Made by a program: the position numbers and the translations under genes
The notes under the pieces: model-generated
The model's database searches: none
Seen by the model: the letters and a program-made list of their open reading frames with translations, nothing else
What the model was told of the DNA's origin: nothing
In this document: positions 7,413-24,899 of the stretch, piece by piece
Layout of the letters: the number at the start of each line of letters is the position of its first letter
How positions within the stretch are numbered: the first letter of the stretch is position 1
From: Prevotella sp.
Lineage (GTDB): Bacteria; Bacteroidota; Bacteroidia; Bacteroidales; Bacteroidaceae
DNA: 64,000 nt
Reading direction: 5' to 3'
Assembly (NCBI GenBank): GCA_017554145.1
Contig: JAFZIZ010000001.1
Span: 225,242 to 289,241 of the forward strand

Positions 7413-7469
7413 CACTTTTGTTTTTTTAAATTAATAAATAAGTTTTACGTTGCATCTTGAATGCGGATG

Positions 7470-7477
7470 CAAAATTA
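7470..7477 (-). promoter_or_regulatory. Promoter -7 box for the mobile cluster
   Basis: TAATTTTG on the minus strand matches the Bacteroidetes -7 consensus TAnnTTTG. It lies 58 bp upstream of the Cys-rich gene. A TTTG occurs 14 bp further upstream, closer than the usual 19-21 bp, so the -33 element is uncertain. Confidence 0.6.
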
Positions 7478-7498
7478 CAACTGGCAAAAAACAAAAAG

Positions 7499-7545
7499 CC
7501 CCTATATAGGAGCTATATATAGGAGCTATATAGGGAAATATAGGA
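7499..7545. repeat. Iteron-like dyads just upstream of the mobile-cluster promoter
   Basis: The motif CTATATAGG(AG) or its variant CTATATATAGGAG is repeated three to four times, each copy being nearly self-palindromic (CCTATATAGG). The copies sit roughly 20-70 bp upstream of the -7 box at 7470-7477 on the minus strand, where an activator, repressor or replication initiator could bind. Confidence 0.6.
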
Positions 7546-7576
7546 GGTAACCCTCCTTGATTATCAAATAGTTACG

Positions 7577-8692: not shown

Positions 8693-9247
8693 TTACACCC
8701 GAATAACTATCTTCCCACCACCTGGGCCAAAAACGAAGTCACCTATCAGCCGTACTGATCTTGGTATGCTGAGTGTCACAAACTGGCGACAGGTGGCAAA
8801 TGCCATTGAGCAAATAGTCACTACGCCATCAGGTACAACGTACTCTTCACTCTTAAACGAGGAACGGGCAAATAGCAACCGATGCCCATCAAGACTATAC
8901 CCCACGTCGTGCTCGTCCAAACGATATTCTCCTTCGTCCTCAAAGGCCCATGTCTCTTCATCTCGATTAGCGTATTTCTTCGTCCAGAAATAGATTGCTG
9001 GCATCAGTTCCTCGTTCTCCTCTTCATCCTCACTAAACACCAACTGGTCATGTTCATGTACATGAGCCGTCCAAGGCACATGCAGCGTTCCAATCCGGCA
9101 ACCTATCAATGCCCCAGGCTCTATCTCTTCTACACCTTCAGGAATCCAATAAGCACCATCCGCACTGGCACCCTTCAACAGCCGCTTCCCATCTGCAGAA
9201 TAAACAAAGCCATAGCTATCCATCCACAGCTGATCCGTATCACTCAT
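8693..9247 (-). CDS. BspA-like leucine-rich-repeat protein
   Basis: 184 residues. Two short LRR_5/BspA-type units: WIPEGVEEIEPGALIGCRIG near residue 33, and VVPDGVVTICSMAFATC with the following TLSIPRSVRLIGDFVF near residue 140. A Glu-rich segment lies between them. No signal peptide, so probably cytoplasmic, unlike the secreted BspA adhesins. It is the last gene of the 14-gene minus-strand run, 11 bp after its neighbour. LRR proteins of this kind usually bind other proteins; its partner is unknown. Confidence 0.65.
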   Translation of the reverse strand: MSDTDQLWMDSYGFVYSADGKRLLKGASADGAYWIPEGVEEIEPGALIGCRIGTLHVPWTAHVHEHDQLVFSEDEEENEELMPAIYFWTKKYANRDEETWAFEDEGEYRLDEHDVGYSLDGHRLLFARSSFKSEEYVVPDGVVTICSMAFATCRQFVTLSIPRSVRLIGDFVFGPGGGKIVIRV

Positions 9248-9258
9248 ACATTATTATT

Positions 9259-9576
9259 CTAAAAAGCTTTTTTAGTTTCTTGAGACAACTCCCACAAAAT
9301 ATCTATTGGATTCCTATATACAGGATTCTCGTTCTCCAGATATTTGTCAAGGGCATAAACAGCTGCATCATTAATTTTCTGATACAGTCCATTGTGCCCA
9401 TTCCAATTTGTAGACCAGCTGTTCAATTCGTTTTGATCATACCATATTTGATACAACTCTTCGTATTCTTTATCAGAGAGTTCTATTCCAAATTGGTAGC
9501 GTCCACTGATATTACTGCCATATTCTTCACTGCCAGCCTCAAAACAGAAATCAACATAGATTTTTGCTATTTTCAT
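9259..9576 (-). CDS. Small acidic protein, unknown
   Basis: 105 residues, acidic, soluble. No family recognised. Its ATG overlaps the stop of the upstream nuclease-like gene by four bases (ATGA), so the two are translationally coupled; small acidic proteins coupled to nucleases are often inhibitors or immunity proteins, but nothing in the sequence proves that here. Confidence 0.6.
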   Translation of the reverse strand: MKIAKIYVDFCFEAGSEEYGSNISGRYQFGIELSDKEYEELYQIWYDQNELNSWSTNWNGHNGLYQKINDAAVYALDKYLENENPVYRNPIDILWELSQETKKAF

Positions 9577-10136
9577 CTGAACAATTCTTCAAGAATATTT
9601 AACATGTCATTTCTATGGAAGTCTCTAATTTCAACATCATTCTTTGAATCATTGTACCAATATATCTTACCCCAATAGCTATCTTTATTGTAATCTATGA
9701 ACACGCCTACATATGAACCGCAATTATAATAATCAGAAGCACCTTCTTGTCTTGGTCTTACCATCCGGTTTAATTCTCTTTCATCATCAACTCGTTTCTC
9801 AGGATTATCCGGTTTCTTCATTTCTAAAACCAAATAATTGGGTTTTGTTTCTTCACGCGTTTGAACAATCAAGTCAACCCTGACCTTATGACCATCAACA
9901 ATCTTCGGATTTCCTCCATAACTTCTATTATATTCTACATCAACATAATATCCCTTAAATAATTCCGTTCCATTCAGAAAATCATAAGCTCTCATTCTTT
10001 TTTCCATGTACATAGCCACACGTGCACAAATATTCCATTCAGAAACCTCATCGTTCAAATTGACTCTATCGAGTGTATAAACGTCTTCGAAGGAGTTACG
10101 CAAAAGCCATAATACTATTTTTCTTGTCTTATTCAT
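9573..10136 (-). CDS. PD-(D/E)XK nuclease-like protein A
   Basis: 187 residues. The core VRVDLIVQ (Asp88), then YLVLEMKK (Glu105-x-Lys107), gives the D-x(n)-ExK active-site pattern on two adjacent predicted strands, as in restriction-endonuclease-like proteins. A helical N-terminus (1-60) precedes it. No signal peptide. Target unknown; could be a DNA nuclease or a structural relative. Second such protein in the operon (see 16522-17058); the two share the pattern but little else. Confidence 0.65.
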   Translation of the reverse strand: MNKTRKIVLWLLRNSFEDVYTLDRVNLNDEVSEWNICARVAMYMEKRMRAYDFLNGTELFKGYYVDVEYNRSYGGNPKIVDGHKVRVDLIVQTREETKPNYLVLEMKKPDNPEKRVDDERELNRMVRPRQEGASDYYNCGSYVGVFIDYNKDSYWGKIYWYNDSKNDVEIRDFHRNDMLNILEELFR

Positions 10137-10173
10137 ACTTCAATAACTTCAATAATAGAACTTCCTAACTCTC

Positions 10174-11958
10174 TTACTGTTTTTTTATAGCTTCATTCGC
10201 TTTGTTTTTATAATAATCATCAATATCATTATGTCCCCATCCGTTTTTCAATTCCAGAAAGAGTTTGTGCGCTAATTCTGAGTTCCCTTCTCTTTCTAAA
10301 AGGGTGGCTAATTCGTACATCCCCTTGGCATCATTTCTTTCAGCAGAGGTCATTAAAAATTCTTTTGCTTTCATTACATTAGAATCTACGCCCAATCCAT
10401 CTCGATAAATAACGCCTAAATAAGCCTTTGCTCTATCACGAAGTGAACCACCACCATAATGTTCATCGTCCATATCTGCTTTCTCGAACAATTCACGTGA
10501 TTTCTCATAATTTTTTTGTATCCCGATGCCTTTAAAATACATCTCACCTAAATTGCAATAAGCATCACGAAAGCCCAAATCCATTTCTCTTTGATACCAG
10601 TAAATAGCTTTTTCATATTTTTCCTCTTCCATAAATTTTGCTGCGAGAACATCAATCGTTGATGAAAAAAGTCCATTACATTCGATATTATATATTATTT
10701 CATGTTTGGTTAACTGTTTATGATTAAACTTCCTTAACCAATAATCAGCTTTAGTTGCATCCTGAGAAATTGTTTCCCACATTTCACCACCACCTGATTC
10801 AGTATTGTACATATAATAGTATTCGAAATTACCTATTTCGCCATAAGTATACATAATACCCATCATATACTGAAACAAATAATTACCCTGCTCCGCAGCC
10901 TGCGTTTTTAGCTCTATTGCTTTATTAATATCTTTGCTTACTCCCAAACCCTGAGCATATAGATCCCCTAATCTCCATTGAGCTAAATCGAGTCCTTTTT
11001 CTGCGGCTTTTTTATACCAACTAACAGCTTGTTCAATATTATCTGTTGGTGTTACATCTAAAGATTCAAACATCGGATAATTTATTGTCGAGAATGACGG
11101 GTCATTGAACAGCCCCATTCCAAACTCTGCAACGGAAACACCCTTATTTGCATTTTCTCTACACCATTGTTTGTCTGATAACATTAGATACTGAGCATCT
11201 ATCATTCCATTATCAGCAGCCTGTTTTATCAAGTTCATTATTGCTGATTGTTCCTTCAAATTGTCATTAATATTTATCTTTGTTAACTGCTCTGGGAATC
11301 CTGTCTTATAATCCAACAAAAGTTTTCCAAGAGCAATTTGTGCTTCAGGATAACCTTTTTCTACTGCCTTTACATAAAAATTATATGCCTCTTGATAAGA
11401 TTCCTGAGTATTTGGATCCTCATCATAATCTCTGTCAAATGGAACTATAGATGCTTGCCCCAATTGATATGTAGCAGGAGCATAACCAGTATCCGATGCT
11501 TTTTGTAATTTCTCATAGGCTGAGGCTATATCATTTCTAGCCATAGCTATCATTCCATCGTTATATAACTGTGATGCGTCCTTTTCTTTCTTAAGCAAGC
11601 ATAATTCATAAGTTTCTTTTGATTCAACCGAAGGGATTCCATGTTCTGTGAAATCAACGACGAGTGGTTTACAATTCACAGCCTTCACTTCAAGACGAGA
11701 GCTTTTTTCTGGCATATAAACCCAGTACTCATTTGTTTTAAAGGCAACTTCACCAGCAATATCACCCTCAAAAAGGACATTACGCAATGGGAATTGGACC
11801 TTAATTAATGCACACGCTATTCCTTTTGTGTCATCACGCTGGTTTGTTCGTGCTGCAATATCAGACGAACTTTGTTTAAAACTAATCACAGCGATTTCTT
11901 CTTGTGAGAAAACTGAGATACTAACTACAAGAAACAATAAACTAAATAACTTTTTCAT
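10174..11958 (-). CDS. Secreted Sel1-repeat protein, paralogue 1
   Basis: 594 residues. Signal peptide 1-18 (MKKLFSLLFLVVSISVFS). Residues about 25-125 are an unnamed N-terminal domain shared with the next three upstream genes (pattern NQRDDTKGIACALIKV, then a WVYM strand and a FTEHGI element). The rest is Sel1-type TPR repeats, for example AVSWYKKAAEKGLDLAQWRL and LGDLYAQGLGVSKD. Sel1 proteins are scaffolds that hold protein complexes; this one is presumably periplasmic or cell-surface. It is 14 bp downstream of paralogue 2. Confidence 0.75.
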   Translation of the reverse strand: MKKLFSLLFLVVSISVFSQEEIAVISFKQSSSDIAARTNQRDDTKGIACALIKVQFPLRNVLFEGDIAGEVAFKTNEYWVYMPEKSSRLEVKAVNCKPLVVDFTEHGIPSVESKETYELCLLKKEKDASQLYNDGMIAMARNDIASAYEKLQKASDTGYAPATYQLGQASIVPFDRDYDEDPNTQESYQEAYNFYVKAVEKGYPEAQIALGKLLLDYKTGFPEQLTKININDNLKEQSAIMNLIKQAADNGMIDAQYLMLSDKQWCRENANKGVSVAEFGMGLFNDPSFSTINYPMFESLDVTPTDNIEQAVSWYKKAAEKGLDLAQWRLGDLYAQGLGVSKDINKAIELKTQAAEQGNYLFQYMMGIMYTYGEIGNFEYYYMYNTESGGGEMWETISQDATKADYWLRKFNHKQLTKHEIIYNIECNGLFSSTIDVLAAKFMEEEKYEKAIYWYQREMDLGFRDAYCNLGEMYFKGIGIQKNYEKSRELFEKADMDDEHYGGGSLRDRAKAYLGVIYRDGLGVDSNVMKAKEFLMTSAERNDAKGMYELATLLEREGNSELAHKLFLELKNGWGHNDIDDYYKNKANEAIKKQ

Positions 11959-11972
11959 AATTATAGCGGTTT

Positions 11973-13409
11973 TTAATAATTGTCCTTAATAAAATCAATA
12001 GCTTTTTGATAACCTTTTTTAGATAAGTAATTTAAAGTATTAAAGACTTTTATTCTGTTATCAGTATAATCGTATTGATAATAATCTATTATTGCTTTTA
12101 AATATAGAGCATCGTCATCATCTATACCAGTAAGAAATTTACTTGCTTTTTTATATTCTTTTCGGTTATAATAAATCTCTGCTAAACGACAGGCCGCTTT
12201 GGGGTGACGACCCGTATACGAATTTTCAGGAGAAGCCTTTAAATAATAATCCATTGCCATATTAATGTCTTTGGGAACATTGCGTCCTTCTTCATACATA
12301 TAGCCCAGCTGAAACAATGCTTCTGGCAAACCTTCAGCAGCTTGCTGTTTAATAAAATCAATTTTTGTTTGATCTATCGGATATAATCTATTTCCATATA
12401 TTCTAACCAAATCAGTCTTCGATTGATTTGTAGGTGCTATTTCATAGACTTTATTGTACCAATCAGCTGCAATGGATAGATTCTGTGATTTACACATTCC
12501 CATTTCGTAAATGACACCTAAGCATCTCATTGCTTTCAGATTTCCAGTAGCGGCAGAATCTAGACAAATATTATACATAAGGTCACATCCCTCTGACAAT
12601 CCATTACTTTGAGGAAAATCTATGAACAGATCATCTCCTGCCCGTTTATAGCCTTTAGCGCATGCTTTTAATTCATATAGGCTTGCTATAGAATATATAT
12701 CTTTTTCTTCATCTCGATTTACTCGTGAACTACCACGCCATATTTTAGATTTTTGTCTACATGCATAAATGTACATCAGTTCTCCTGGCATTTTATCAAG
12801 ACAAGTACTATCACCTTTTGACAATAGTTTCTCTATCCAGTAATATCCTGATTCATTCTTGCCAGAATCGCCATTCTTAACAGTAGCCAATTGAGCCATT
12901 GCGATTTGCGCCTTTACATCACCTCTTGTGGCAGCCATCTTCAAGAAAGTCCTTGCATTATTTGGAACTTCCATGCCATCTAGATTCCATCCTAATTGAT
13001 ATACTTTGTTAATAATGTCTTTAGTATCATCTACAAGATGTAATGAATAGGTCTGTCCGCCTATTAGAGAACTAATCCCATAATCACCAAACACAACATC
13101 CTTTGTCTGATAATCAGTATGCTTTATCTTAATATGTTTTGCACCATTGGCAATAAAGACCATATATACATCATCTTTATATTCAACATCACCAACGACC
13201 CATCCTTCAAATTCAAGTCCTTCTTTCAACGATTGTACTTTTAGCAATGCACATGAATTACCATTGTTGTCATTTCTCATTCTCACTGCCATCTGGGCAT
13301 TCTCCAATGGCTCGAACTCCTTCACCTCGATATCTTGGGCAAAAGTTACTCTTGTGAAAAGCAGGATAAATGTTATCAAAATGACTTCCTTTTTCTGTTT
13401 CATATTCAT
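11973..13409 (-). CDS. Secreted Sel1-repeat protein, paralogue 2
   Basis: 478 residues. Signal peptide about 1-24 (LITFILLFTRVTFAQ). Shared N-terminal domain with RNDNNGNSCALLKV, FEGWVVGDVEY and the closing FGDYGISSL. Sel1/TPR repeats follow, e.g. AEGLPEALFQLGYMYEEGRN. The 5' end of the gene is also similar at DNA level to paralogue 4 (14999-16483), suggesting fairly recent duplication or gene conversion of that domain. No PEGA domains. Confidence 0.75.
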   Translation of the reverse strand: MNMKQKKEVILITFILLFTRVTFAQDIEVKEFEPLENAQMAVRMRNDNNGNSCALLKVQSLKEGLEFEGWVVGDVEYKDDVYMVFIANGAKHIKIKHTDYQTKDVVFGDYGISSLIGGQTYSLHLVDDTKDIINKVYQLGWNLDGMEVPNNARTFLKMAATRGDVKAQIAMAQLATVKNGDSGKNESGYYWIEKLLSKGDSTCLDKMPGELMYIYACRQKSKIWRGSSRVNRDEEKDIYSIASLYELKACAKGYKRAGDDLFIDFPQSNGLSEGCDLMYNICLDSAATGNLKAMRCLGVIYEMGMCKSQNLSIAADWYNKVYEIAPTNQSKTDLVRIYGNRLYPIDQTKIDFIKQQAAEGLPEALFQLGYMYEEGRNVPKDINMAMDYYLKASPENSYTGRHPKAACRLAEIYYNRKEYKKASKFLTGIDDDDALYLKAIIDYYQYDYTDNRIKVFNTLNYLSKKGYQKAIDFIKDNY

Positions 13410-13455
13410 TTTGGTCTAAGATGCATATATCGTAATTATAAATATTCTCAACTTA

Positions 13456-15012
13456 CTACATCAAGCGAACTTTAGCCTGTCTGCATACGCTCTCAAATCT
13501 ACTATTCAATGCACGTTGATACCATTCTCTTGCACTTTCTTTGTTACCCGTCTTAAGATAACAATCTCCTAAATCAATACAAAAATCTAATGAACTATCT
13601 TCATCAACATATTTCATACATTTTTTGTACCAAACAATTGCATCAGCATACATGCTTTCTTTCTTATATAGATCTCCTATGTGCTTATAAGCATTTAAAA
13701 CCTGTCCTTTATCAGACAACTTGTAATTAATCAGCTTTAAATAAATATCCTTTGACTTCTGAAAATTATACACCTCAGGCTTATCTTTTTCCCCATATAA
13801 AGAAGCTAACAGCTGAAGTGCCGTAGTTTTTAGATTTTCACTTCCATCATCTTCAAGATTGTCTATTGCTAAAGAAAACCAATATGCTGCCTGAATGTAA
13901 TCCCTGTACATCATGCCATGTGCTAGCCAGAATTGACTCTTACCATCTCCTTGTACAGCCCTTTCATAACCATTAAGCGGCATAAGAGTATACTGAATTG
14001 TGTCTTCGTCTATTCCTTTGATATTTACAGGTAACTCAACACTGCCATATCCATACTGAGATAATGTAAGTGTATGTTTTCCTAATGACACATCTATTAA
14101 TAGTCCATCATCCAACTTAACTTCTTTGCCATCCAACAATACATTATTATAATCTGAGATATTTGTAATTATCCTCAATCTTCCTCTCATTTGCTTCAAT
14201 TCGGGTAGTTCAAATAGGTGGTTACCTTTTTCTACAATTATTACCTCTTGTTGTAATGACAAAAAACCATCTTTTTGGGCTTTTATTACATATGTACCAG
14301 GAACAACACTCCCTTGCCAGTTTCCATTACCTATTTTTTTATCATTAAGATATAATTGTGCACCATTTGTTTTGCAACCGATTTGTACTTGCGCCTTTAG
14401 TGATTCCAATGCAACATTTACTGTCTGGATTCCCTTACCAGTATTTACAATTTCAACTGCAGATTGATATCCATCAGCTTTTACTTGTAACACATGCTCA
14501 CCTTTTTTCAGGAATAATCGATAACTTCCATTTGAAAGAATATCAAGAGGAATATTGTCAACAACGACTTGTGCTTCAAAAGGTTTTATGTTGAGAATAA
14601 CGGTGTTCTTATCTGGTTTGAAAGAAGATTCTCTTAAGATAAGAAGATAACTAGTTTTTGACTCTATTTCATCAATCCCATAATCTTTAAATACAATTTT
14701 AAACGGTAAATAACAAGGACGCTTGATTGTCAGATCTTTTGATCCTTTTGACAAATATACCCAGTACTCATTCAAATTACTATCTATATTTCCAACCACA
14801 TTTTTGCCAAAAGAAATATCAGAAGCGCTAACTTGAACTTTAACCAACCCACAAGGTATACCTAAACTATCATTTCGTTGATTAATTGATGCAGATAAGT
14901 CCGATAGGACTGTTTTCATCCCCTTAACTTCCAATCCTTGTGCATTCATGACAAGAAAAAAAAATGAGAAGATTATCACTGAAATGCTTTTAATTATTCT
15001 ATTTGATTTCAT
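13456..15012 (-). CDS. Secreted PEGA and TPR protein, paralogue 3
   Basis: 518 residues. Signal peptide about 1-25 ending MNAQG. Shared N-terminal domain (NQRNDSLGIPCGLVKV, EYWVYLSKGSKDL, FKDYGI). Then three PEGA-type beta domains, about 136-190, 207-262 and 276-332, each with a GxYxL..KxG(E/T)H core, which in other proteins bind cell wall or surface partners. The C-terminal third (about 340-518) is TPR-like. It overlaps the upstream gene by 14 bp. Probably anchored in or facing the envelope. Confidence 0.75.
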   Translation of the reverse strand: MKSNRIIKSISVIIFSFFFLVMNAQGLEVKGMKTVLSDLSASINQRNDSLGIPCGLVKVQVSASDISFGKNVVGNIDSNLNEYWVYLSKGSKDLTIKRPCYLPFKIVFKDYGIDEIESKTSYLLILRESSFKPDKNTVILNIKPFEAQVVVDNIPLDILSNGSYRLFLKKGEHVLQVKADGYQSAVEIVNTGKGIQTVNVALESLKAQVQIGCKTNGAQLYLNDKKIGNGNWQGSVVPGTYVIKAQKDGFLSLQQEVIIVEKGNHLFELPELKQMRGRLRIITNISDYNNVLLDGKEVKLDDGLLIDVSLGKHTLTLSQYGYGSVELPVNIKGIDEDTIQYTLMPLNGYERAVQGDGKSQFWLAHGMMYRDYIQAAYWFSLAIDNLEDDGSENLKTTALQLLASLYGEKDKPEVYNFQKSKDIYLKLINYKLSDKGQVLNAYKHIGDLYKKESMYADAIVWYKKCMKYVDEDSSLDFCIDLGDCYLKTGNKESAREWYQRALNSRFESVCRQAKVRLM

Positions 15013-16483
15013 ATCCTATTTCTTTTAATTCCTCTTCAACTCTTGAGAATGAACCGCCACTAAGAAGAAAAGCTTTACGATACCAATACGCAGCTATATT
15101 TAGATCTTTTTCCACTCCACCAATTCCATAACGATAATAACGCCCCATCCAATAACATGCATTTAAATCTAATTCAAGATCAAGACTTTGTTTCAATAAA
15201 GCGAAAGCTCTCTTAGGATCCTTTCTACATCCTCTTCCTATTTCTAAATATTTTGCCAAACTTCGTAAAGCCTCTGGATGATTTTGTGCTGCTGCTTTTT
15301 CCAACCAGTAAATTCCTGTTTCATAGTTGACATCATTTTTATTCCAACCCTCTACAGAAGAGAAAGTTTCATTATTATACATTCTGGCTAATTTATTTTG
15401 AGCATCTGCATTACCCCTAATAGCTTCCATTTTTATTTTACAGAATTCTGACATATATTCCAAAGAACCTTCTATTGTATAGGTCTGTCCCTCCTCAATA
15501 TCAATTGTTTTTCTAAACGAATAATAACAATCCTTATCTACAACTACTTTATGAGTACCTACTGATATATCTTCTATAAAGAAGGGGGTAATTCCCACTC
15601 TCTTTCCGTCAATATAAATAACACAGGAATCTGGTTGGTATTGTATGTTCAATTTTCCAGATATTTCTTTTAAGCCGATCATACTTACAAAAACAGAATC
15701 ATTTTCTTGTATATTCAAAATCCTAGTCATAGAAATGAATCCGTCCTTCTTAGCATCTATAGTATATTCTCCAGGTGGAACTAATCCTTCCCAATCATTA
15801 ATTCCTTTCTGCACCCCATTAACATAAATAACTGAACCTTCCGTTACACATGAAACTTTAAGGTATGAAAAAAAAGTTGTCAAATCAACATCAACAACTT
15901 TAGCTTTCTTTTCAACTTTAATTAATCTATTGTTAATTGCAAAATCGCCTAATTTAACAGAATAAAAATGGCTTCCAATTGGGAGACTTAGATTATAAAT
16001 TCCATTTCTTTCTTTAGGGAGCAATTCATTATTAACATACAAATCCACATCTGATGGCATAACTTTTAAGACTATAGTTCCTTTCTTGTCCGATGTATTC
16101 ACTTTACGTCTTTCTGTTTTAAGCTCTAACTTATAAACATGTCCAGAAGATATTTTATTAACACCATAATCAGAAAAGGTAACTGTTATTGGTAGATAAT
16201 TAGGATGTTTAATATTTAACCGTTTAGTTCCTTTTGATAGATATACATAATATTCAACTCCTTTAATCTCTACATCACCAATAATATTGCCTTCAAACTG
16301 AAGGCCTTGCTCTTTCAATACAACTTTTACCAACCCACAAGTATTACCATTGATATCTTTTCTCGGACTCGTCACTGCCGTCTGGTCCTTCTCCAACGGC
16401 TCAAACTTCTTCACCTCAATGTCTTGGGCATTGATGCAAAGAACTATAGTCCAAACTGCTATTATAAATCCCGTTCTTTTCAT
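14999..16483 (-). CDS. Secreted PEGA and Sel1 protein, paralogue 4
   Basis: 494 residues. Signal peptide 1-19 (MKRTGFIIAVWTIVLCINA). Shared N-terminal domain (RKDINGNTCGLVKV, FEGNIIGDVEI, VYLSKGTKRLNIKHPNYLP, FSDYGV), then three PEGA domains (about 135-190, 205-258, 270-325) and Sel1 repeats (YETGIYWLEKAAAQNHPEAL; NIAAYWYRKAF). It combines the two architectures seen separately in paralogues 1/2 and 3, so it may resemble the ancestor. First of the four paralogues in transcription order. Confidence 0.75.
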   Translation of the reverse strand: MKRTGFIIAVWTIVLCINAQDIEVKKFEPLEKDQTAVTSPRKDINGNTCGLVKVVLKEQGLQFEGNIIGDVEIKGVEYYVYLSKGTKRLNIKHPNYLPITVTFSDYGVNKISSGHVYKLELKTERRKVNTSDKKGTIVLKVMPSDVDLYVNNELLPKERNGIYNLSLPIGSHFYSVKLGDFAINNRLIKVEKKAKVVDVDLTTFFSYLKVSCVTEGSVIYVNGVQKGINDWEGLVPPGEYTIDAKKDGFISMTRILNIQENDSVFVSMIGLKEISGKLNIQYQPDSCVIYIDGKRVGITPFFIEDISVGTHKVVVDKDCYYSFRKTIDIEEGQTYTIEGSLEYMSEFCKIKMEAIRGNADAQNKLARMYNNETFSSVEGWNKNDVNYETGIYWLEKAAAQNHPEALRSLAKYLEIGRGCRKDPKRAFALLKQSLDLELDLNACYWMGRYYRYGIGGVEKDLNIAAYWYRKAFLLSGGSFSRVEEELKEIGYEIK

Positions 16484-16521
16484 AAAATCAATTTACTATA
16501 GTGATGTATAGTTACAATAAT

Positions 16522-17058
16522 TCATAATTTTTTCTGTGACTTCTTCCAAGTTTTTAGGTCTTTCCCCCTATGTTCTATAAAGTTCTTTAGTCTTACTTTA
16601 GAACGATTAGAAAGTTCTTCTCCAGAGCAGTTTCCATTTACAAAATCCACAAGTTCTTGTACTTGAGTTTCAAAATCTGATTTTGACTTTTGAAAAGCAG
16701 CTTTAGCACTCCGTCCTTTATAAGGTTTTATCCAATCAAGTTCTGTTAGTTGCAAAATATAAAAGTTCTTACCCGTTTCATTTAAAAGGAATTGTAATTT
16801 GTTTACTTCTATATAGGTCATCATCCCTTTTATTTCCACATACAACTTACTTCCGTCCTTTCGTGATGTAAGCATAACATCTACTTTGTGTTTATTGCTT
16901 TTTGTAAAAGGCGTATTATCTATCTCTGTAAAAAACTTGAAGTCTTCCTCCAACTTAAGCCCTAATTTGTCTAATACATAACATATCGCTTTTTCTGTAT
17001 TGTACATTTTATGCTTGATTTGAAATAATTCATCTTCATATAGTTTGGCGATTTCCAT
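16522..17058 (-). CDS. PD-(D/E)XK nuclease-like protein B
   Basis: 178 residues. KVDVMLTSRKDG (Asp60) then LYVEIKG (Glu75-x-Lys77) gives the D-x(n)-ExK pattern of restriction-like folds. A helical N-terminus precedes it and a basic tail ends in KSQKKL, which would suit nucleic-acid binding. No signal peptide, so it is cytoplasmic in the middle of a run of secreted proteins. Spacing of 18 bp from the gene before and 38 bp to the next places it firmly in the operon. Confidence 0.65.
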   Translation of the reverse strand: MEIAKLYEDELFQIKHKMYNTEKAICYVLDKLGLKLEEDFKFFTEIDNTPFTKSNKHKVDVMLTSRKDGSKLYVEIKGMMTYIEVNKLQFLLNETGKNFYILQLTELDWIKPYKGRSAKAAFQKSKSDFETQVQELVDFVNGNCSGEELSNRSKVRLKNFIEHRGKDLKTWKKSQKKL

Positions 17059-17076
17059 AATTATTATTTGTTAATT

Positions 17077-18048
17077 TTAAATATCAAAATCACTTAGACT
17101 AAATACTTCGTCCTTGGGCAAGGCTTTGCCTCCTATCTTATCAGGTTGCCAAGTACGAACGTGAACCTGCGGAGCATTTTCGTTGGTAAAGTCCCAAAGC
17201 AGGAAAAGATAGCCGTCATCATGGTATCTTCCACTGGTCCACCCTTGCTTGAGAGTGACACCATAGAAATTAGCATTCACAGGATGGCGCATCACCTCTA
17301 TCTCGTCAAAGGTTACCTTAATATAGCTGTTACGCTGGAAAATGCCACGAAGGTTTCTGATGTATTGTTCCTTGCTTTGTTTGTTGTACTGAATCTTCTG
17401 AGAGGTAAAGCCTTCTGCATGTCTTGTAGTGATGACTTTACCTGTGATTATCAAAGCATCATCGCTGAACACTTGATTAAGGAAGTTGATGTCCTTCTGA
17501 TTATAGGCAGTACGGAATTGTTCCACATAGTCTAATATCAACTGTCGACGACGAAGATCTGTCAATTCCAGATTACTCTTGATGACATTCATATAGAGAT
17601 TCATCGAGATACTCAGATAGAAACTCTCTACTTCGCCTTGCTTGTCGAAACTAATAACAGCCTCCTGGTACTCATCCTCATTGAAGTCACGTTCTCCAGT
17701 AGGTTTCATCATCAGGGGAATGTTACGTACTTGATAGCCTGTACCCGTCGTGATGCAATGTTCAACAATATCCTCATCAGTGCAAACAAATGGCGTATTC
17801 TCCCATAACATAGCCATAGACTGTTGGACACGAGTATTGACACCCATTGCCGAAAAGTTAAGACTACGACTTGCTGCCTGTGCTTCATTAACCTCATTCA
17901 GAATACGAGTAACGCTATTTTCCATCTTTGATTTAAGTGCACTGTTGTCAATGCCATCAGAGATGGTAAAAGACACATGCGCTACACTGAATGATAAATG
18001 ACAAACAATAAATGATAAAGACAATAATATTCGTTTCATATTCTTCAT
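17077..18048 (-). CDS. Secreted protein with NTF2/SnoaL-like C-terminal domain
   Basis: 323 residues. Signal peptide about 1-23; part of it is encoded by a 7-bp repeat array (17991-18018). N-terminal helical region, then a C-terminal NTF2-like fold from about residue 185: FRTAYNQKDINFLNQVFSDD, followed by strands including FYGVTLKQGW and the closing HVRTWQP. NTF2-like domains often make protein contacts rather than catalyse. It overlaps the next upstream gene by one base. Exact role unknown. Confidence 0.65.
   Translation of the reverse strand: MKNMKRILLSLSFIVCHLSFSVAHVSFTISDGIDNSALKSKMENSVTRILNEVNEAQAASRSLNFSAMGVNTRVQQSMAMLWENTPFVCTDEDIVEHCITTGTGYQVRNIPLMMKPTGERDFNEDEYQEAVISFDKQGEVESFYLSISMNLYMNVIKSNLELTDLRRRQLILDYVEQFRTAYNQKDINFLNQVFSDDALIITGKVITTRHAEGFTSQKIQYNKQSKEQYIRNLRGIFQRNSYIKVTFDEIEVMRHPVNANFYGVTLKQGWTSGRYHDDGYLFLLWDFTNENAPQVHVRTWQPDKIGGKALPKDEVFSLSDFDI
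17991..18018. repeat. 7-bp array within a signal-peptide coding region
   Basis: ATGATAA, ATGACAA, ACAATAA, ATGATAA in the 5' part of the NTF2-like gene. It encodes the residues LSFIVCHLSFS, a hydrophobic stretch that still works as a signal-peptide core. Confidence 0.7.
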
Positions 18049-18782
18049 TATTTAAGTTGGAACCAGATGGCTCCACAGTTCTTATAATTCTTTATGTTAT
18101 CTTCCTTAAGAGTATTGAGGTTGTATTGAGTAGAAGCACATTTACGAAGCAACGCTGATATGTTGCCTTGCTGATCATAAACAAAGATGTGACAATTCCC
18201 ATCTGTGGGCATTGTAGCATACTTTCCATAGGAAATGAGTCTGTCTTTGCTTTTCAAGTCTTTGATATAGGGTTCTATATCATAGAAACTTGTTATGGAT
18301 TTCATTTGCTGTTCATCAGGTGTAAGAGTTATTTCTGCTCTTGCCTCAACAGGAGCCTCTTCAGAAACGACATCATTGGGCAAAGATTCCTCTGTTTCCT
18401 GTGGTGCAACTTGGAATACCACGACCTCACTCTTGTCAGAGACTGGCATAATGTCACTCTTCTTGACATAGACAAAGGCTCTGTAATAATCGCCTCTTCG
18501 TGTCTGTACTTCGAAACAATGTTCTTTTGCCTTGGCTATACACACCTCAACACCTTCATTTGCTTTCTGACTTCGAATCCAGTCGCCTACCTTTATTTCA
18601 AGGATGGCTTTCGCTCCTATAAAAGCCTCATTCAAATCCTTCATGGTGGCTTCAGCATAAAGATAGGTAGTATCTCGCTTGATGGTACTAATTTTCTTAG
18701 CCATTTCCTGAGATTGTGCATGTATTTCGATGAATCCCATAACACAAAGCAATAGTACTAAATGTAGTCGTTTCATTGCCAT
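18048..18782 (-). CDS. Secreted protein of the tubulin-like operon, unknown
   Basis: 244 residues, signal peptide 1-22 (MAMKRLHLVLLLCVMGFIEI); the second Met is an equally good start. The first half looks beta-rich with a central ETEESLPNDVVSEEAPVEAR linker (about 130-150), and the C-terminal half ends in FYDIEPYIKDLKSKDRLISY and a beta-rich region. No family recognised. It overlaps the neighbouring genes by one base downstream and ten bases upstream, so it is tightly coupled to them. Confidence 0.65.
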   Translation of the reverse strand: MAMKRLHLVLLLCVMGFIEIHAQSQEMAKKISTIKRDTTYLYAEATMKDLNEAFIGAKAILEIKVGDWIRSQKANEGVEVCIAKAKEHCFEVQTRRGDYYRAFVYVKKSDIMPVSDKSEVVVFQVAPQETEESLPNDVVSEEAPVEARAEITLTPDEQQMKSITSFYDIEPYIKDLKSKDRLISYGKYATMPTDGNCHIFVYDQQGNISALLRKCASTQYNLNTLKEDNIKNYKNCGAIWFQLK

Positions 18783-19735
18783 TTTACTTTTTTATGAGTT
18801 TTTGATTGTTTCTGATACAGATCCTTCACATTATGAGTCGGAATATAAGGAGTCAGACGAACTTTCAGGACTGCTTTCTGATCTTCAATGAATTTATCAG
18901 GAATTACAACAGAAAGCAAATGATGGTAACCTAATTCCTTACTCTGCGCTATAACAAGTGCCAAAATGCCATCCTCTCTCTCTTCCTCAACAGCAAAGAA
19001 AACTTTTAAGTTCCACTCCGCACAGTAATTGAGCCACTGATTGAGCGTGATGGTATAGTTGATAGTACTCATACCATAGACAGACTGTTCCACATACATC
19101 TTGTAGTCTGCATGGGGTAATAACCCATGAAACAAATTGGCAGCAGAATAGTCCAAATGCTTTTTGTCAAAGACAGGCTGATAGTTCTTTTGTACCTTAT
19201 TATAATATAGGGCATCAGAAAGACTGCCTAATACAAGGGTATCACCTTGGGACATATACAGAGTCTCATTCAACTTCCTTAAATTGGATGGGGCTTTCGT
19301 CTCTTTTGTACGTTGAGAGGCTGAAAGAACTGCATCCTTGAACTTCTTTGATGCCTTGTCTTTATCTAACCCAAACAGTAAATCGTACTGGGCAGGAAAA
19401 ACTATAGTAACAAAAGGCTCGTCACCCTTCATCCAATTTACTTCATAATAACGGTCAAGCAAAGTAATGGAGAATGGCATAGCATCATTAATCTGAGACA
19501 AATCTGCAAGTTTTCCTTTACGGAAATAAACTTTGTCATCTGCCATCTTTGTCTCAATAGAAGTCTGCTTCTGGGAAGGAAGTTCTTTAAAATAACGCTC
19601 CAAAAAGTCCATGACTACCCTTTGAGTCTTTGGCACGACCTCCTTTATCTCAGGGTTGAAGAGTTTCAAACCCTGAGATGATATGGAGATACAATATACT
19701 GCCAATAATATCGTATAAATGGAGCGCATTCTCAT
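18773..19735 (-). CDS. Secreted protein of the tubulin-like operon, unknown
   Basis: 320 residues. Signal peptide about 1-20 (IYTILLAVYCISISSQG). Mixed alpha/beta sequence, rich in Lys and Tyr, with a basic C-terminus (KQSKTHKKVKWQ). I recognise no family. Eleven bases downstream of the membrane Ig/MORN protein and overlapping the following gene, so probably part of the same envelope assembly. Confidence 0.65.
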   Translation of the reverse strand: MRMRSIYTILLAVYCISISSQGLKLFNPEIKEVVPKTQRVVMDFLERYFKELPSQKQTSIETKMADDKVYFRKGKLADLSQINDAMPFSITLLDRYYEVNWMKGDEPFVTIVFPAQYDLLFGLDKDKASKKFKDAVLSASQRTKETKAPSNLRKLNETLYMSQGDTLVLGSLSDALYYNKVQKNYQPVFDKKHLDYSAANLFHGLLPHADYKMYVEQSVYGMSTINYTITLNQWLNYCAEWNLKVFFAVEEEREDGILALVIAQSKELGYHHLLSVVIPDKFIEDQKAVLKVRLTPYIPTHNVKDLYQKQSKTHKKVKWQ

Positions 19736-19746
19736 ATTACTGGTAT

Positions 19747-20868
19747 TTACTTTCCAATAATCACACTTCCCTTCACCTGATTGTCTGAGCCATACCAGAT
19801 ACCCTGTACCAGATGCCCATCAGACCATTCACCAATCACATAATCGCCAGCAGAAGCAACACGTTTCTTGGGGTCACGGCTATCAATCACATGGGAGGTC
19901 TTGAATATCATACGACCACTCACATCATTAGGCCAACTACCCTTAAAGGTTGCATATCCAAGATCTCTTGAACCAAACGATGCAACGGGTTTCGGAGAAG
20001 ACTGGACTACAGGTTTTGATGTTGGCTGAGATGCAGGTTTCGATGTTGGCTGTGAAGTCGGGACTTGTGACTTTGCATCCGCCTCTTTTGCATTTTCTTG
20101 TTCATACGGTCCTTCTACGGATACGACAGCAGTATCAGCCAGACCTGTACGATCAGACTTGACAATTACATTCACTTGCCCAACCTTAAGAGCCTCAAGT
20201 TTTCCCTTTGGTGAAACCTTGACAATTGACTCATCGCTTGAACTCCATGAAATATTCTCATTCTGGTTTTCAGGCGTAAACTTCACTGTCAGTTGCTGGT
20301 GACCTCCAGGTCTTAGGACAATAGGATCTTCAACGATGTCGAGAGTTTCCATATTAATATCCTCTTCAATAACAGTATATTCGCATGAAGCAGTCATCTC
20401 TTCATTGTCCTTAACCACAACCGTCACAATTGCTTTACCAGGTGCCTTTGCAGTCACTACGCCATTATTGACAGTAACGACATTCTCATCACTGGATTTC
20501 CAAATCAATTCTGGTTGTACTTCTTTTGGTTCTACAGTAACAGTAAGTCTGTCCGTCTGTTCCAATTTAAACGTTACTTTTGACTTGTCGAGAGTCAATT
20601 TCTCAACTTTGGGTCCTCCAGAGAGAGCAAAGATACCCACAATAATAGCCAGTAATACTACTACGCCAGCAATAATGCCAATCAATTTCATATTACCACC
20701 CTTCTTGGGGGGAGGACATTCACGTAAAGGTTTACCGCATTCTGTGCAAACAAAGTCTTTTCGAGCAGGTATTTCCTGCACTTCTTTTGACTTACATTTC
20801 TCGCAATTGTCGTTCAGACAGATTCCGTATCTATAGCGTATTCTATCTTTATTTCTTGATGTTGCCAT
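19747..20868 (-). CDS. Membrane protein: zinc ribbon, TM helix, two Ig-like domains, MORN-like tail
   Basis: 373 residues. N-terminal cysteine cluster C17, C22, C25, C41, C44, C51 (zinc ribbon). One TM helix about 61-83 (LIGIIAGVVVLLAIIVGIFA). Two BIG2-type bacterial Ig-like domains, about 88-167 and 172-253, each with an (I/L)xWxSSDExxVxV core. A Thr/Ser/Pro/Lys linker (about 265-295, SQPTSKPASQPTSKP), then a MORN-like end (YVIGEWSDGHLVQGIWYG). With the positive, Cys-rich part inside, the Ig domains would be periplasmic, so the protein could link the cytoplasmic tubulin-like filament to the secreted Sel1/PEGA proteins (inference from order and topology). Confidence 0.75.
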   Translation of the reverse strand: MATSRNKDRIRYRYGICLNDNCEKCKSKEVQEIPARKDFVCTECGKPLRECPPPKKGGNMKLIGIIAGVVVLLAIIVGIFALSGGPKVEKLTLDKSKVTFKLEQTDRLTVTVEPKEVQPELIWKSSDENVVTVNNGVVTAKAPGKAIVTVVVKDNEEMTASCEYTVIEEDINMETLDIVEDPIVLRPGGHQQLTVKFTPENQNENISWSSSDESIVKVSPKGKLEALKVGQVNVIVKSDRTGLADTAVVSVEGPYEQENAKEADAKSQVPTSQPTSKPASQPTSKPVVQSSPKPVASFGSRDLGYATFKGSWPNDVSGRMIFKTSHVIDSRDPKKRVASAGDYVIGEWSDGHLVQGIWYGSDNQVKGSVIIGK

Positions 20869-20904
20869 AATACTAACAATTATTTCATTACTTCAATTCT
20901 TCTA

Positions 20905-23900
20905 TTACACCATTGGTGGAGGGGTTGGACCACCTGACGGTGGCAATGGAGGCATAGAAGGCGTTGGCCCGAACAATGCTTGTAAAGCAGGAACCTGACT
21001 TGCAGGAGCCCAAGCAGGCATACCTTCCATCCACACCATACTTTGAGGTGTCAGTTGACCACCTTGAACCATTTGCTTACACATATCCATATTATATGGA
21101 CCATACTGCTGACCAGCTACTGCCAAGAATAGACTTATTTCTGGTTGCGGAGCAACAGGAGGTGGAACAGGTGCTGCTCCTGGCATTGGTGGAGGAACTG
21201 CTGGTCCTGCTTGTGGCGTTGCAGCAGAGGCAGAAGACTGAATTGCAGATTTTGCAGCAATCTCCTCCGCATTATCAACAGCAAAGAGGGATGGTAACTG
21301 TTTGCCGTCACCTTCGCTATGTAGGAGAATGGCATTACCTGCATCTGTTGCTGGATTACCTGTATTCAGGAAACGCTCATAACGTTCCTTGTATGGTTTC
21401 ATCCACTCGATAGCACGAATTGGGAAGCAGTAAGCAACTGTGATAATAGATAGTTCATCCTTTCGAGGACTCTTACGGTTCACCACAATAGTTGTACGAG
21501 CAGTACTCTGATTAAATGAGTTCTTGAAAGCGTCTTCCAATTTGTCTGCAAACTTCTTCAAACCCTCGTTATCATCGGGAGAAGGAATAGACACAAGAAT
21601 GGTCTTCTTGTTAATACTTGCTGGATTAGTGGGGCTCAAGTTACCTTCATTATTACGAAGATGTAACTGTATCTGATCATTGTTGAGTTTCAGATAAACT
21701 CCACTTTGATTGACAATCTTTGAAGCAAACGCTTTAATCTCATCATCCGTCTTTAGTTTCTGTTGAAGTTGAGTAAGGATATTCAAACCAAGCACCTTCT
21801 TATCACTCTCTGCTTTCTCATCATGTTTTGTCTTAACAATCTGAGAAAGTTTGATGTCAAAGGCATCCTTAATATCGTCAACATTGATTTCTGTAGCGAG
21901 TTTGCCGAAATTAACGAAGTCACCTTCTGGCAATACGCTTTCTCGTATCTGACGTGCGATATTAGGCATGTCAACCTTATCAACTTTCAGTTCAACCTCA
22001 AACTCACTCATCGTTTCATCTTCACTCACTTCAATAATAGCCCCCTTCATATCTTCGAGACCCTTATTGACTTTACGCTGAGCAGTAATTAGACGTTCTG
22101 TCTCGTCAATTGCATCATTGATTTTCTGACCAAAAGCTGAAATATCAGCATCCATCTTACCCAATTCAACATAGATACGAGCAGCCAATTTCTTGGCAAA
22201 CTCCCATGCTGCTAGCATTGTCTTAGATGTATAATAATCAGATAGGATTTCTTGATGCTCTGCATAACGACGAGCACCTGCACCTACCATTCGTTGAAGA
22301 ATACCAAGACGACTCCATTCTGTTACATTATCACTGCGATCCATATCAACAGCTTCGAAGTTTTCTTTCTCCTCCTTTGACTTTGATTCTAAGTCCGAAC
22401 GAATCTCTGTTACTTTTTCCAAAAGCAACTTAGAGACTTTCTGTAATTCTACAATAGAAACATCGCCAACCTTCCACTTCTCATACAATTCGTTTTCAAC
22501 ATTATGGCGAATCTCTTTGGCTATCTCAGGTATCGCTTTTTCTTTACCTCCAAAGAATGTCTCAACTCCTTCTTCACGGAAATGGTTTGCATAAAACTCA
22601 CCCATAATGTTATCCAACTCATTAAGGGGATTATCTGCCTTCTTGGCTTCTTCTGCATAACCGATTGCCTTATCATGCCAATAATCATTGAAACGAGGAT
22701 AATCTGCATCAGATTCAAGAACCTTAAGTTCGTATGTAAGGTGGAGATTGTCTAACATCCATTTCTGGAGATTGTCGTTATTCAGATAATCCTTGCGATA
22801 GTCTTTATTCCGTTCTTCATTAACAAAGCCTTGATTCTCACGCCAGTTGTTGTATTTAAACTGATAAAGCACGCTTTCTCCAACTGTATAAGTGATGTGT
22901 TTCAGGACACGGAGTTCTGGATACATCACTCTCTTGATGCCAAATGAATTTACCTTTTTTGTACGAGCAACAGGAATACGTCCATCTTGATCAGGATTAG
23001 CAGCCTCGTCATACTCTAAGGCGAAATCATCCATGTTTTCAAAATTATATGCACGAATAATATCGCCATTGATTTGATCATTTTCATTGATAAAGAAAAT
23101 GCGAGCAAAAATATAGTCACTAACTATCTTTGGTAGTTCCGATAGGGAATTAATCGTAAGTCCATTCTCATTGACGTTGCTGTAAATGGTCAAACCATCG
23201 GCAACTCCCTTTACACGGTCATTATACAGATGTGCTTCTCCCGTTCCTGTTACGTCCTGAGGGAACCAACGACCTGCTTGAAGAGCATTCAACTCGTTTA
23301 ATGCTGCATAACCATTCTGATAATAACGTCCCTGATCCATGTCACTCTTGGGGAGATTCATTTCTGGTATCATCGCATAAACAGATATCTTTGCATCAGG
23401 GAAAGCCTTGCGTGTCTGGATTATAACATCAACTATCGAACCAGAACCCGTTCCTCCACAAAGTCCTGCAAATATATGAATATTCGTATTGCTTGCATCA
23501 CCAGATATTTTCTCACAACGAGCATAGGCATCACGTAGACTATTCACATATCCTATTGCATTAGCAGCAAAAAGCAGGCGACCTGCACGACGTTTCTGAC
23601 CAGCAGCTTGCCCCAAAGAGCCAATAGCAGACTTGACGGCTGTCACATTGTTGACAATTCCTTTAACTGAAGGATAATTCCCAATATGGTCAAGAATATG
23701 CTCTACATCTACTGCTTTAATATTCAGGAACTCATTCCTTGTAAATGATGCATCTTTTCCCATAACACGGAAATCCGGACGAGCCTTACCATCTTGCGGC
23801 ATCATCTCGTCTGTTGAATCAACATAAAGCAAAGCTACTGGCTGCTTCTTGCGCTCTTCATCATCATGGAATTCCTCAAACATTCTCATTTTGAAAGCAC

Positions 23901-23973
23901 GGAGAATCTTACCTCCTGTACCTCCCAGTCCCACTAAAATGTGGTTGCTGTTGCAAAAACTTTTTGTACTCAT
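20905..23973 (-). CDS. Large tubulin/FtsZ-like GTPase with C-terminal GYF domain
   Basis: 1022 residues. N-terminal Rossmann-like GTPase with VGLGGTGGK at 14-22 and the tubulin signature GGTGSGS at 173-179, followed by a MIPEMN strand, as in the bacterial 'tubulin-like' (Tubulin_2) families. These are distinct from cell-division FtsZ and were proposed by Makarova and Koonin to act in membrane remodelling. A long helical middle (about 330-880) follows, then a Pro-rich stretch, a GYF_2 domain about 953-1000 (AVAGQQYGPYNMDMCKQM, then MVWMEGMPAWAPASQVP) and a Pro-rich tail. GYF domains bind proline-rich peptides; a GYF between Pro-rich segments might self-associate. No TM helix. Confidence 0.85.
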   Translation of the reverse strand: MSTKSFCNSNHILVGLGGTGGKILRAFKMRMFEEFHDDEERKKQPVALLYVDSTDEMMPQDGKARPDFRVMGKDASFTRNEFLNIKAVDVEHILDHIGNYPSVKGIVNNVTAVKSAIGSLGQAAGQKRRAGRLLFAANAIGYVNSLRDAYARCEKISGDASNTNIHIFAGLCGGTGSGSIVDVIIQTRKAFPDAKISVYAMIPEMNLPKSDMDQGRYYQNGYAALNELNALQAGRWFPQDVTGTGEAHLYNDRVKGVADGLTIYSNVNENGLTINSLSELPKIVSDYIFARIFFINENDQINGDIIRAYNFENMDDFALEYDEAANPDQDGRIPVARTKKVNSFGIKRVMYPELRVLKHITYTVGESVLYQFKYNNWRENQGFVNEERNKDYRKDYLNNDNLQKWMLDNLHLTYELKVLESDADYPRFNDYWHDKAIGYAEEAKKADNPLNELDNIMGEFYANHFREEGVETFFGGKEKAIPEIAKEIRHNVENELYEKWKVGDVSIVELQKVSKLLLEKVTEIRSDLESKSKEEKENFEAVDMDRSDNVTEWSRLGILQRMVGAGARRYAEHQEILSDYYTSKTMLAAWEFAKKLAARIYVELGKMDADISAFGQKINDAIDETERLITAQRKVNKGLEDMKGAIIEVSEDETMSEFEVELKVDKVDMPNIARQIRESVLPEGDFVNFGKLATEINVDDIKDAFDIKLSQIVKTKHDEKAESDKKVLGLNILTQLQQKLKTDDEIKAFASKIVNQSGVYLKLNNDQIQLHLRNNEGNLSPTNPASINKKTILVSIPSPDDNEGLKKFADKLEDAFKNSFNQSTARTTIVVNRKSPRKDELSIITVAYCFPIRAIEWMKPYKERYERFLNTGNPATDAGNAILLHSEGDGKQLPSLFAVDNAEEIAAKSAIQSSASAATPQAGPAVPPPMPGAAPVPPPVAPQPEISLFLAVAGQQYGPYNMDMCKQMVQGGQLTPQSMVWMEGMPAWAPASQVPALQALFGPTPSMPPLPPSGGPTPPPMV

Positions 23974-23992
23974 AATGTAATGTTTTTATTTA

Positions 23993-24574
23993 TTAATATT
24001 TTCGTCTTCTACTTACTCGTTGCCTACTATATTGTGGCCTGTTTCTTTTTTGTTTTGAATATGATTTTGATAACGTTTTTATCACAAATATTGCCCCTAT
24101 AATTACAAAAGCCAAGCACCATAATATGCGACGAAAAACATACCAATGCATAAAAGAACGTAGTGATTGGACTATGGCATGTGGCAATTCCTTTGCCGTA
24201 TAACCAGAAAAATGGCCGCCACTTACATAATAATGTAATATTGGATATTCATCAATAATCGTGTTTATGACATCTGAAGCCTGATCAGTAGACACCTCTT
24301 CTGATGGAGAATAATAGTTGTCAACTATTGCAGAAATTCGATTCTCATAATCATCAGACATATTGATAATTTTGAGTGATCCTACGACCAGCACACATTG
24401 GAAGGACAATAATATAAACAATACGACTCCAACTATATAGCTGACAGGAGAAAAGGTAGCATCTTTGTACCAACCTTTAATCAAGAAGATGAATAACCCC
24501 ATACATATACATGCGATAAGGATGCCCCATATCACACTACTAAAAGAGAATCTAAGTATGTCAAATAATACCAT
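23993..24574 (-). CDS. Three-helix membrane protein at the head of the tubulin-like operon
   Basis: 193 residues. TM helices about 13-32, 44-66 and 146-167; the 80-residue loop between helices 2 and 3 would be outside and the very basic tail (KQKRNRPQYSRQRVSRRRKY) inside. Good ribosome site AAGGAGG seven bases before ATG. Twenty bases upstream of the tubulin-like gene. Could serve as the membrane anchor for the filament (inference). Confidence 0.7.
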   Translation of the reverse strand: MVLFDILRFSFSSVIWGILIACICMGLFIFLIKGWYKDATFSPVSYIVGVVLFILLSFQCVLVVGSLKIINMSDDYENRISAIVDNYYSPSEEVSTDQASDVINTIIDEYPILHYYVSGGHFSGYTAKELPHAIVQSLRSFMHWYVFRRILWCLAFVIIGAIFVIKTLSKSYSKQKRNRPQYSRQRVSRRRKY

Positions 24575-24868: not shown

Positions 24869-24899
24869 CAAATATATAGAATATTTTTGAAAGTTGCAA
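24869..24899 (-). promoter_or_regulatory. Candidate promoter of the tubulin-like operon
   Basis: Minus strand: TTGC (24899-24896), 19 bp spacer, then TATATTTG (24876-24869), a good match to the Bacteroidetes -33/-7 pattern. It would leave a leader of about 290 bases before the first gene. No nearer match found. Confidence 0.5.

Follow-up and report, generated by a model that had tools for sequence, protein, structure and literature searches.

How a tubulin-like GTPase in the cytosol might be tied to proteins beyond the inner membrane is the question raised by a run of 14 genes in Prevotella sp. (GenBank assembly GCA_017554145.1, contig JAFZIZ010000001.1), which lies within the 64,000-nucleotide stretch that was analysed (positions 225,242 to 289,241 of the contig; hereafter the window). 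An earlier note, made from the sequence alone, had read the run as a single system headed by a protein with three transmembrane (TM) stretches and a 1022-residue tubulin-like GTPase with a GYF domain, in which one membrane protein ties a filament to a periplasmic scaffold. The layout is confirmed: 14 minus-strand open reading frames (ORFs) occupy window positions 8693-24574 with the same ends as in that note, the gaps range between -14 and +46 bp and 207 bp follow gene 14, and TM prediction and Pfam agree with the two proteins at the head. We report that the core of the run is a recurrent modular system and that its tail is lineage-specific. The best supported part of the model that we propose is the bridge formed by the product of gene 3, P3, whose two halves co-diverge with the proteins on the two sides of the membrane. 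All genes and features given below by coordinates are on the minus strand unless stated.

Gene 1 (TM1; 23993..24574) encodes 193 aa with three predicted TM stretches and gene 2 (TUB; 20905..23973) encodes the 1022-aa FtsZl1/Tubulin_2 GTPase. Residues 12-368 of TUB (22870..23940) match Tubulin_2 (PF13809) with 166.4 bits against a cut-off of 27 (E 1.4e-48), which places the protein in this family, and the GGTGSG GTP-binding loop is found in 57 of 58 TUB relatives, the window's own protein included. The GYF domain (residues 949-997; 20983..21129; GYF_2, 5.1e-15) is flanked by proline-rich stretches. The closest tubulin-like relatives of TUB come from uncultured Prevotella and Xylanibacter brevis. 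We rejected the identification of TUB as a canonical division FtsZ, the match to Pfam Tubulin being 19.1 bits at a cut-off of 33; the source genome has one Tubulin_2 gene and, elsewhere, a separate FtsZ/tubulin-family gene (a 443-aa frame, 152.6 bits), and TUB is therefore unlikely to be the division protein.

P3 (gene 3; 19747..20868; 373 aa) consists, on the basis of Pfam, TM prediction and alignment, of a cytosolic half with a zinc ribbon ending in ECPPPKK (residues 1-61; 20686..20868), which co-diverges with TUB, one predicted TM stretch (residues 62-80; 20629..20685), two Big_2 domains and a periplasmic MORN-like tail (approximately residues 297-373; 19750..19980; profile A5). In the earlier label for this protein (zinc ribbon, TM, Ig and MORN) the TM stretch and the Big_2 domains, which score above the Pfam cut-off, stand, while the evidence for the other two parts is weaker or indirect: the zinc ribbon matches below the cut-off (E 0.047) with four cysteines that are invariant in an alignment of 23 members, and MORN gives no match in the window protein at E 0.1 and is matched in P3 of the related loci L070 and L096 (24.8 and 26.3 bits, cut-off 22.5).

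Genes 4 to 6 encode the secreted proteins P4, P5 and P6. P4 (18773..19735), identified by its recurrence in the loci described below, has no known domain, with no convincing Pfam match in 39 members and no solved relative. P5 (18048..18782) is possibly LPP20-like; its members that were scanned have no Pfam match of their own, and a weak match links the P5 profile to the N-terminal part of LPP20-bearing fusions. P6 (17077..18048) carries a C-terminal NTF2-like domain (Cds6_C, E 9e-5, 23.1 bits, under the cut-off of 27). The count of seven secreted proteins in the run is upheld for the six with a hydrophobic, signal-like N-terminal stretch (genes 5, 6, 8, 9, 10 and 11); in gene 4 this stretch is sub-threshold, and the family supports it (present in 45 of 53 members).

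Searching genome contigs, always with the tubulin as the query, gave 60 loci, and the core was counted in the 53 of these having at least 3.7 kb after the tubulin gene. Relatives of P3 and P6 are present in 52 each, of P4 in 50 and of P5 in 49 of the 53, and gene 1 has a relative in 48 of the 56 loci that extend 700 bp or more upstream of the tubulin. The gene order TUB-P3-P4-(P5)-P6 is common to 60-odd loci from several families and other orders. The expectation that the same neighbours recur with the tubulin gene is thus borne out for genes 1 and 3-6, which keep company in relatives. A fixed 14-gene system, as the earlier note had it, is rejected, since genes 7-14 form a variable tail. Specifically, gene 7 is present in none of the 60 loci (and in 0 of the 53 with room), gene 13 in none, gene 14 in one and gene 12 in six within 10 kb of the tubulin; loci L002-L061 span at most 10 kb after the tubulin and genes 12-14 of the window begin 10.8 kb after it, so that for these three the loci end too early and rarity is only partly tested. 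Moreover, the PEGA/Sel1 paralogues of the tail are tied to one type of P6: they were found in all 16 loci of the window's type (P6 identity of at least 54%) and in 6 of 37 of the other, where the rows are not independent and the short contigs of several type-B loci depress the count. Behind P6 most loci instead have two other families, A7 (522 aa, 26 loci) and A6 (256 aa, 31 loci).

Tubulin_2 matches were found in 13 of 121 genomes of the family sample, 14 of 294 of the order and 11 of 60 of the genus, six of the latter above the cut-off. For the five others above the cut-off in the genus, three contexts were examined (L125, L126 and L127; G765 and G748 were outside) and these are of another type. 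The tubulin genes of L080, L081, L082 and L125-L127, all from the same bacterial family, have no adjacent P3-P6, and their neighbours are vWA-like by motif only. As Tubulin_2 is present in few genomes and these other contexts differ, the tubulin system is accessory and patchy even within the genus. A phage or plasmid origin was considered and rejected: 148 pattern matches among viral contigs included no relative, one phage record covered 22% at 29.9% identity, and there were three plasmid records, one with 83% coverage at 28.1%. A clean empty site could not be demonstrated among eight same-genus genomes because the gltD-adjacent gene is not conserved in them.

Some of the loci are irregular. 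L060 is a 7.8-kb contig labelled Clostridiales that starts inside the tubulin gene and has a 91%-identical fragment of it and no other core gene; it is probably a mis-binned or broken contig. In L039 and L110, probably one genome (Xylanibacter muris), the tubulin is split into two frames, one of 755 aa and a second, with the GYF domain, of 265 aa, due to a broken gene or a sequencing error. For L089 and L090 (G400, contigs C21 and C25), a 5.2-kb contig duplicates the genes upstream, gene 1 and the tubulin as far as residue 604, where it stops; either the locus exists in two versions or the assembly is at fault.

The role of membrane link that had been given to gene 3 is supported by an independent test. 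Pairwise distances were compared over 57 loci having all four genes, with the P3 cytosolic part taken as the 55 residues before the TM stretch; L109 and L110, whose contigs equal those of L041 and L039, respectively, in length, were treated as the same genomes and left out. The cytosolic half of P3 follows TUB (r 0.93), and the MORN-like tail follows P6 (r 0.85) and P4 (r 0.81), while the two halves of P3 correlate with each other at r 0.25, or 0.06 with TUB held. P5 follows P6 (r 0.88) and not TUB (r 0.20), and gene 1 correlates moderately with TUB (r 0.47, 44 loci). In a 29-locus subset the partial correlations were 0.90 for the cytosolic half and TUB given P6 and 0.84 for the tail and P6 given TUB (both p 0.0005, permutation). 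The same is seen in single pairs of loci. Across the two P6 types, tubulin identity to the window's protein reaches up to 83% while P6 drops to 34-49%; the window and L007 share 84% in TUB and 75% in the cytosolic half, and 41% in P6 and 34% in the tail; for L086 and L112 the identity is 73% in P6, 79% in the tail and 30% in TUB. Trees of 22 loci also disagree: L074 is sister to L086 in the TUB tree, and the P6 tree separates the two widely. The P6 data reject L074 together with L086 (lnL 320 lower) and the TUB data a grouping of L074 with the P6 type of the window (lnL 129 lower), for groups that were named after the trees had been inspected. Taken together this suggests, though it does not prove, that P3 contacts partners on both sides.

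The profile of the P3 tail matches in 8 of 294 genomes of the order, 11 of 121 of the family, 6 of 345 of the class (three new) and 2 of 296 of the phylum (one new), the samples overlapping. The tail is thus a rare marker, with 23 loci in 22 genomes, all of which were examined. P6 lies beside it in all 23 and P4 in 22 (the exception is L097), and the cytosolic side is a tubulin in 16, a kinase in two, a TIR domain in two, a zinc-ribbon pair in one and none in two. In L070 and L094 P3 itself starts with a protein kinase domain (Pkinase, 3e-29 and 4.7e-28), and in L096 and L097 with a TIR domain (TIR_2, 3.5e-14, and 4.6e-6, the latter just below the cut-off); by eye, the catalytic residues seem to be present, as HxDIKPDN and DFG in the kinases and as WxxxE in the TIR domain of L096. 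In L072 two zinc-ribbon proteins precede a zinc-ribbon P3, and the same genome has a tubulin locus, L074. Caspase-like and SPFH labels given by eye in L072 were discarded, there being no solved relative and no such Pfam match, and the caspase-like label of the zinc-ribbon proteins also failed against the model caspase_w_EACC1 (12.2 bits vs 140). In a P6 tree of 50 rows chosen from more (L042, which has no called P6, was left out) L072 and L066 are nested among the tubulin loci with strong support, and the tubulin label is forced to change at least four times on the starred branches. A record from Paraburkholderia, without P4-P6, has a tubulin of 28% identity together with a zinc-ribbon/TM protein that has TPR as its outer part.

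LytTR and FHA/zinc-ribbon genes stand behind P6 of the kinase form L070 (L070:7161-8193), as if this form had a transcriptional output.

On these grounds we consider it somewhat more probable than not that the locus encodes a trans-envelope transducer of two modules with P3 as the junction and swappable cytosolic outputs, the window holding the tubulin version. The inner module would be the FtsZl1/Tubulin_2 GTPase with gene 1, and the outer module, beyond the inner membrane, P4, P5 and P6 along with secreted repeat proteins that vary from locus to locus. The modules would be linked by P3, with the zinc-ribbon half facing TUB on the cytosolic side and the MORN-like tail facing P4/P6 on the periplasmic side, presumably in physical contact. 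We infer the function, be it signalling, defence or scaffolding: the periplasmic proteins may sense the state of the envelope and P3 may relay this inward, where the output of the tubulin version would be GTP-dependent assembly at the inner membrane, perhaps in response to envelope stress, surface contact or attack by phage or rivals. A conflict or stress response is favoured, given that TIR and kinase domains are found as alternative outputs and that the presence is patchy. A bolder proposal, that P4-P6 are a periplasmic sensor set and P3 an adaptor with recombining halves for which a tubulin-like GTPase, a Ser/Thr kinase and TIR are interchangeable partners, and that these make up an undescribed Bacteroidota class of trans-envelope signalling systems, is possible, although we would put it at slightly less than even.

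Several observations weigh against the transducer. P3 of L066 and L124 has no cytosolic part and is a secreted, lipoprotein-like form, and in nine loci (L067, L068, L069, L071, L084, L085, L088, L092 and L093) P4 and P6 are adjacent with neither P3 nor tubulin; the outer module can thus work without a trans-membrane link. For the 43 loci with at least 60% in the tubulin the two-sided pattern is the same (0.59 and 0.89) and the contrast weaker (0.59 between TUB and the cytosolic half, 0.38 between the halves, partial 0.50). Linkage alone could yield part of the co-divergence, because the inner half of P3 adjoins the TUB gene and the tail adjoins P4; neighbouring DNA may travel together, and the result is accordingly described as modular exchange with a border inside P3. 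Nor does any core gene of the window match a PADLOC defence model. Finally, GYF is a domain type that binds proline-rich peptides and the cytosolic half of most P3 members terminates in ECPPPK, and the GYF domain of TUB perhaps holds on to this PPP motif. Among 65 loci, L109 and L110 counted, 51 have both, two GYF only, two PPP only and 10 neither; GYF traces to about one point of origin on a tree of 59 rows, for which reason the pairing, with its four exceptions, is a weak lead and no evidence of repeated co-evolution. As a co-evolving pair it was not kept.

It is unlikely, in our view, that the run is purely structural, i.e. that a tubulin filament at the inner membrane is tied through P3 to a periplasmic scaffold for envelope shaping or remodelling and that the TIR and kinase forms are later re-use. 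The Tubulin_2 membership, the recurrent membrane link and the PEGA, Sel1 and TPR proteins, which are common scaffold types, would fit it, as would the slow tubulin (dN 0.04-0.06) next to fast envelope proteins (0.18-0.37; five comparisons); as dS is saturated or undefined in most of these, positive selection was dropped and no dN/dS claim is made. However, the tubulin is swapped for a kinase, TIR or a zinc-ribbon pair with the outer module kept, which fits signalling better, the presence is patchy, and the T6-H7 elements could not be identified in the family according to Makarova and Koonin (PMC2875224). A role in defence or conflict proper, in which the outer module senses an attack by phage or rivals at the envelope and death or arrest of the cell is brought about by the cytosolic part, is doubtful, if a little less so. 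TIR-P3 of L096 matches the Thoeris ThsB models (1.4e-9) and kinase-P3 of L070 the mad6 and PD-T4-6 models (2.3e-41 and 1.5e-32), but such models match any TIR or kinase domain. The patchy presence and variable tail also point this way, and tubulin homologues are assigned to predicted conflict systems of other phyla by Kaur et al. 2020 (PMC7159879). Against it, genes 1-6 are without a PADLOC match and no relative among the viral contigs hints at mobility; in a PADLOC scan of genes 1-7, 8 and 12-14 (9-11 were outside the scan) only gene 12 matched (24.6 bits), and a known anti-phage system was not found.

That the run encodes an apparatus for surface movement or adhesion comparable to the gliding complex of Myxococcus is very improbable. 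There, GltJ is a focal adhesion protein with a zinc finger, GYF, one TM stretch and a periplasmic part (TonB-like outer part). The closest solved chain to the GYF domain of TUB is 7z3c, a Myxococcus gliding protein (1.1e-7), and the gliding_GltJ model matches TUB (36.8 bits) and P3 of L106 (20.1 bits). Both scores are far below the equivalog cut-off of 450 and cover only GYF or a low-complexity TM region; here, moreover, the GYF domain belongs to the tubulin and the zinc ribbon to P3, and neither a motor nor an adhesin was found. That the genes are chance neighbours, an AT-rich stretch of unrelated co-oriented genes, is hardly credible for the run as a whole. The GC content drops to 33-42% across 8-24 kb (2-kb steps), compared with 45-51% in the flanks, and several tail genes are lineage-specific, but the shared gene order refutes chance for genes 1-6; for genes 7 and 12-14 it is still possible.

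The tail starts with gene 7 (16522..17058), a lineage-specific cytosolic protein, and continues with four secreted proteins of the variable tail, i.e. gene 8 (14999..16483; PEGA/Sel1), gene 9 (13456..15012; PEGA/TPR), gene 10 (11973..13409; Sel1) and gene 11 (10174..11958; Sel1). The repeats reported for these paralogues are confirmed above the Pfam cut-off (PEGA in 8 and 9, Sel1 in 8, 10 and 11, TPR in 9). Then follow gene 12 (9573..10136; cytosolic, nuclease-like, variable), gene 13 (9259..9576; a small cytosolic protein, ORF only) and gene 14 (8693..9247). Of the two PD-(D/E)XK nuclease-like proteins described before, gene 12 has weak database support (PDDEXK_9, E 0.062; PADLOC PD-Lambda-3_A, 4.7e-6) and gene 7 none for a nuclease fold, its D...ExK motif being read by eye only; the LRR protein, gene 14, matches LRR_5 just below the cut-off (27.1 vs 27.7 bits). 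The secreted paralogues (10174-16483) share an N-terminal domain of approximately 110 residues with the pattern NGxxCALIKV ... YWVY ... KHPxYxP and no Pfam match of its own, which is also seen in L003, L004, L076, L077 and L089 and in relatives heads beta-barrel and sulfatase-modifying-type proteins.

In the family sample the P6 profile matches in 36 of 121 genomes at E 0.001, many longer secreted proteins being matched via the NTF2-like part only. In L077, L078 and L104 there are secreted proteins of approximately 615 aa with an N-terminal LPP20 (above the cut-off in L077 and L104) and the C-terminal NTF2-like domain of P6, in part of the cases adjoining or near PEGA proteins; since the P5 profile has a weak match at their N-terminus, each may be a single-chain counterpart of P5 and P6.

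A candidate promoter of the -33/-7 type (24869..24899; consensus match only) lies 325 bp before gene 1. For this consensus, which is of Bacteroidales type, 11 matches were found in the whole window on both strands, and the scan gave none inside the run. The next minus-strand match downstream is past gene 14, ahead of a 302-aa gene, to which the promoter-like match at 8562 belongs. Downstream of the run, at 4443-8485, is a minus-strand group that includes a 727-aa BT4734-like/primase-type protein (weak). Between the run and gltD/gltB, the plus strand encodes a HU-HIG type DNA-binding protein (25274-25831).

No description of this gene combination was found in the literature searched, which covered few subscription papers and preprints. 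One near likeness is FtsZl1 (Makarova and Koonin 2010, PMC2875224): the GTPase family is the same, it has membrane and secreted neighbours, and a Bacteroides caccae member stands in the FtsZl1 alignment. Its main context there comprises vWA, P-loop GTPase, kinases and OmpA, and the main text leaves MORN, PEGA, Sel1, Ig-like and zinc unmentioned. In contrast, the 14 window proteins have no vWA (E 0.1) or P-loop GTPase match in Pfam; a vWA neighbour is a common context of FtsZl1 and not a requirement of the family. The GAP1-N2 GTPase-centric conflict systems of Kaur et al. (PMC7159879) share a tubulin homologue, a membrane tie and zinc ribbons, and further GYF, PEGA, Sel1, NTF2 and TIR, but the DO-GTPase/GAP1 pair, FNIII and vWA of the tubulin system have no Pfam match in the 14 proteins. 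The TIR domain in P3 of L096 and L097 recalls the Thoeris ThsB/TIR effectors and differs in being fused to the TM stretch and MORN-like tail beside P6. A sparse distribution of Tubulin_2 proteins is noted in a passage of PMC9871819.

Envelope remodelling was the idea that Makarova and Koonin put forward for FtsZl1, and in the reviews published with PMC2875224 one referee raised the question of how an FtsZ-like protein in the cytoplasm could act with periplasmic and outer-membrane partners and offered transmembrane signalling in place of remodelling. P3, a single-pass protein whose halves track the two sides, gives this question a concrete and testable answer. If P4-P6 and P3 are indeed the sensor set and adaptor of a signalling class, a possibility that we rate at slightly below even, a cytoskeletal-type GTPase would serve as the output of a receptor-like complex, and if TIR, kinase and tubulin are all exchangeable outputs, ordinary genetics could be used to find out what a widespread branch of the tubulin superfamily does.

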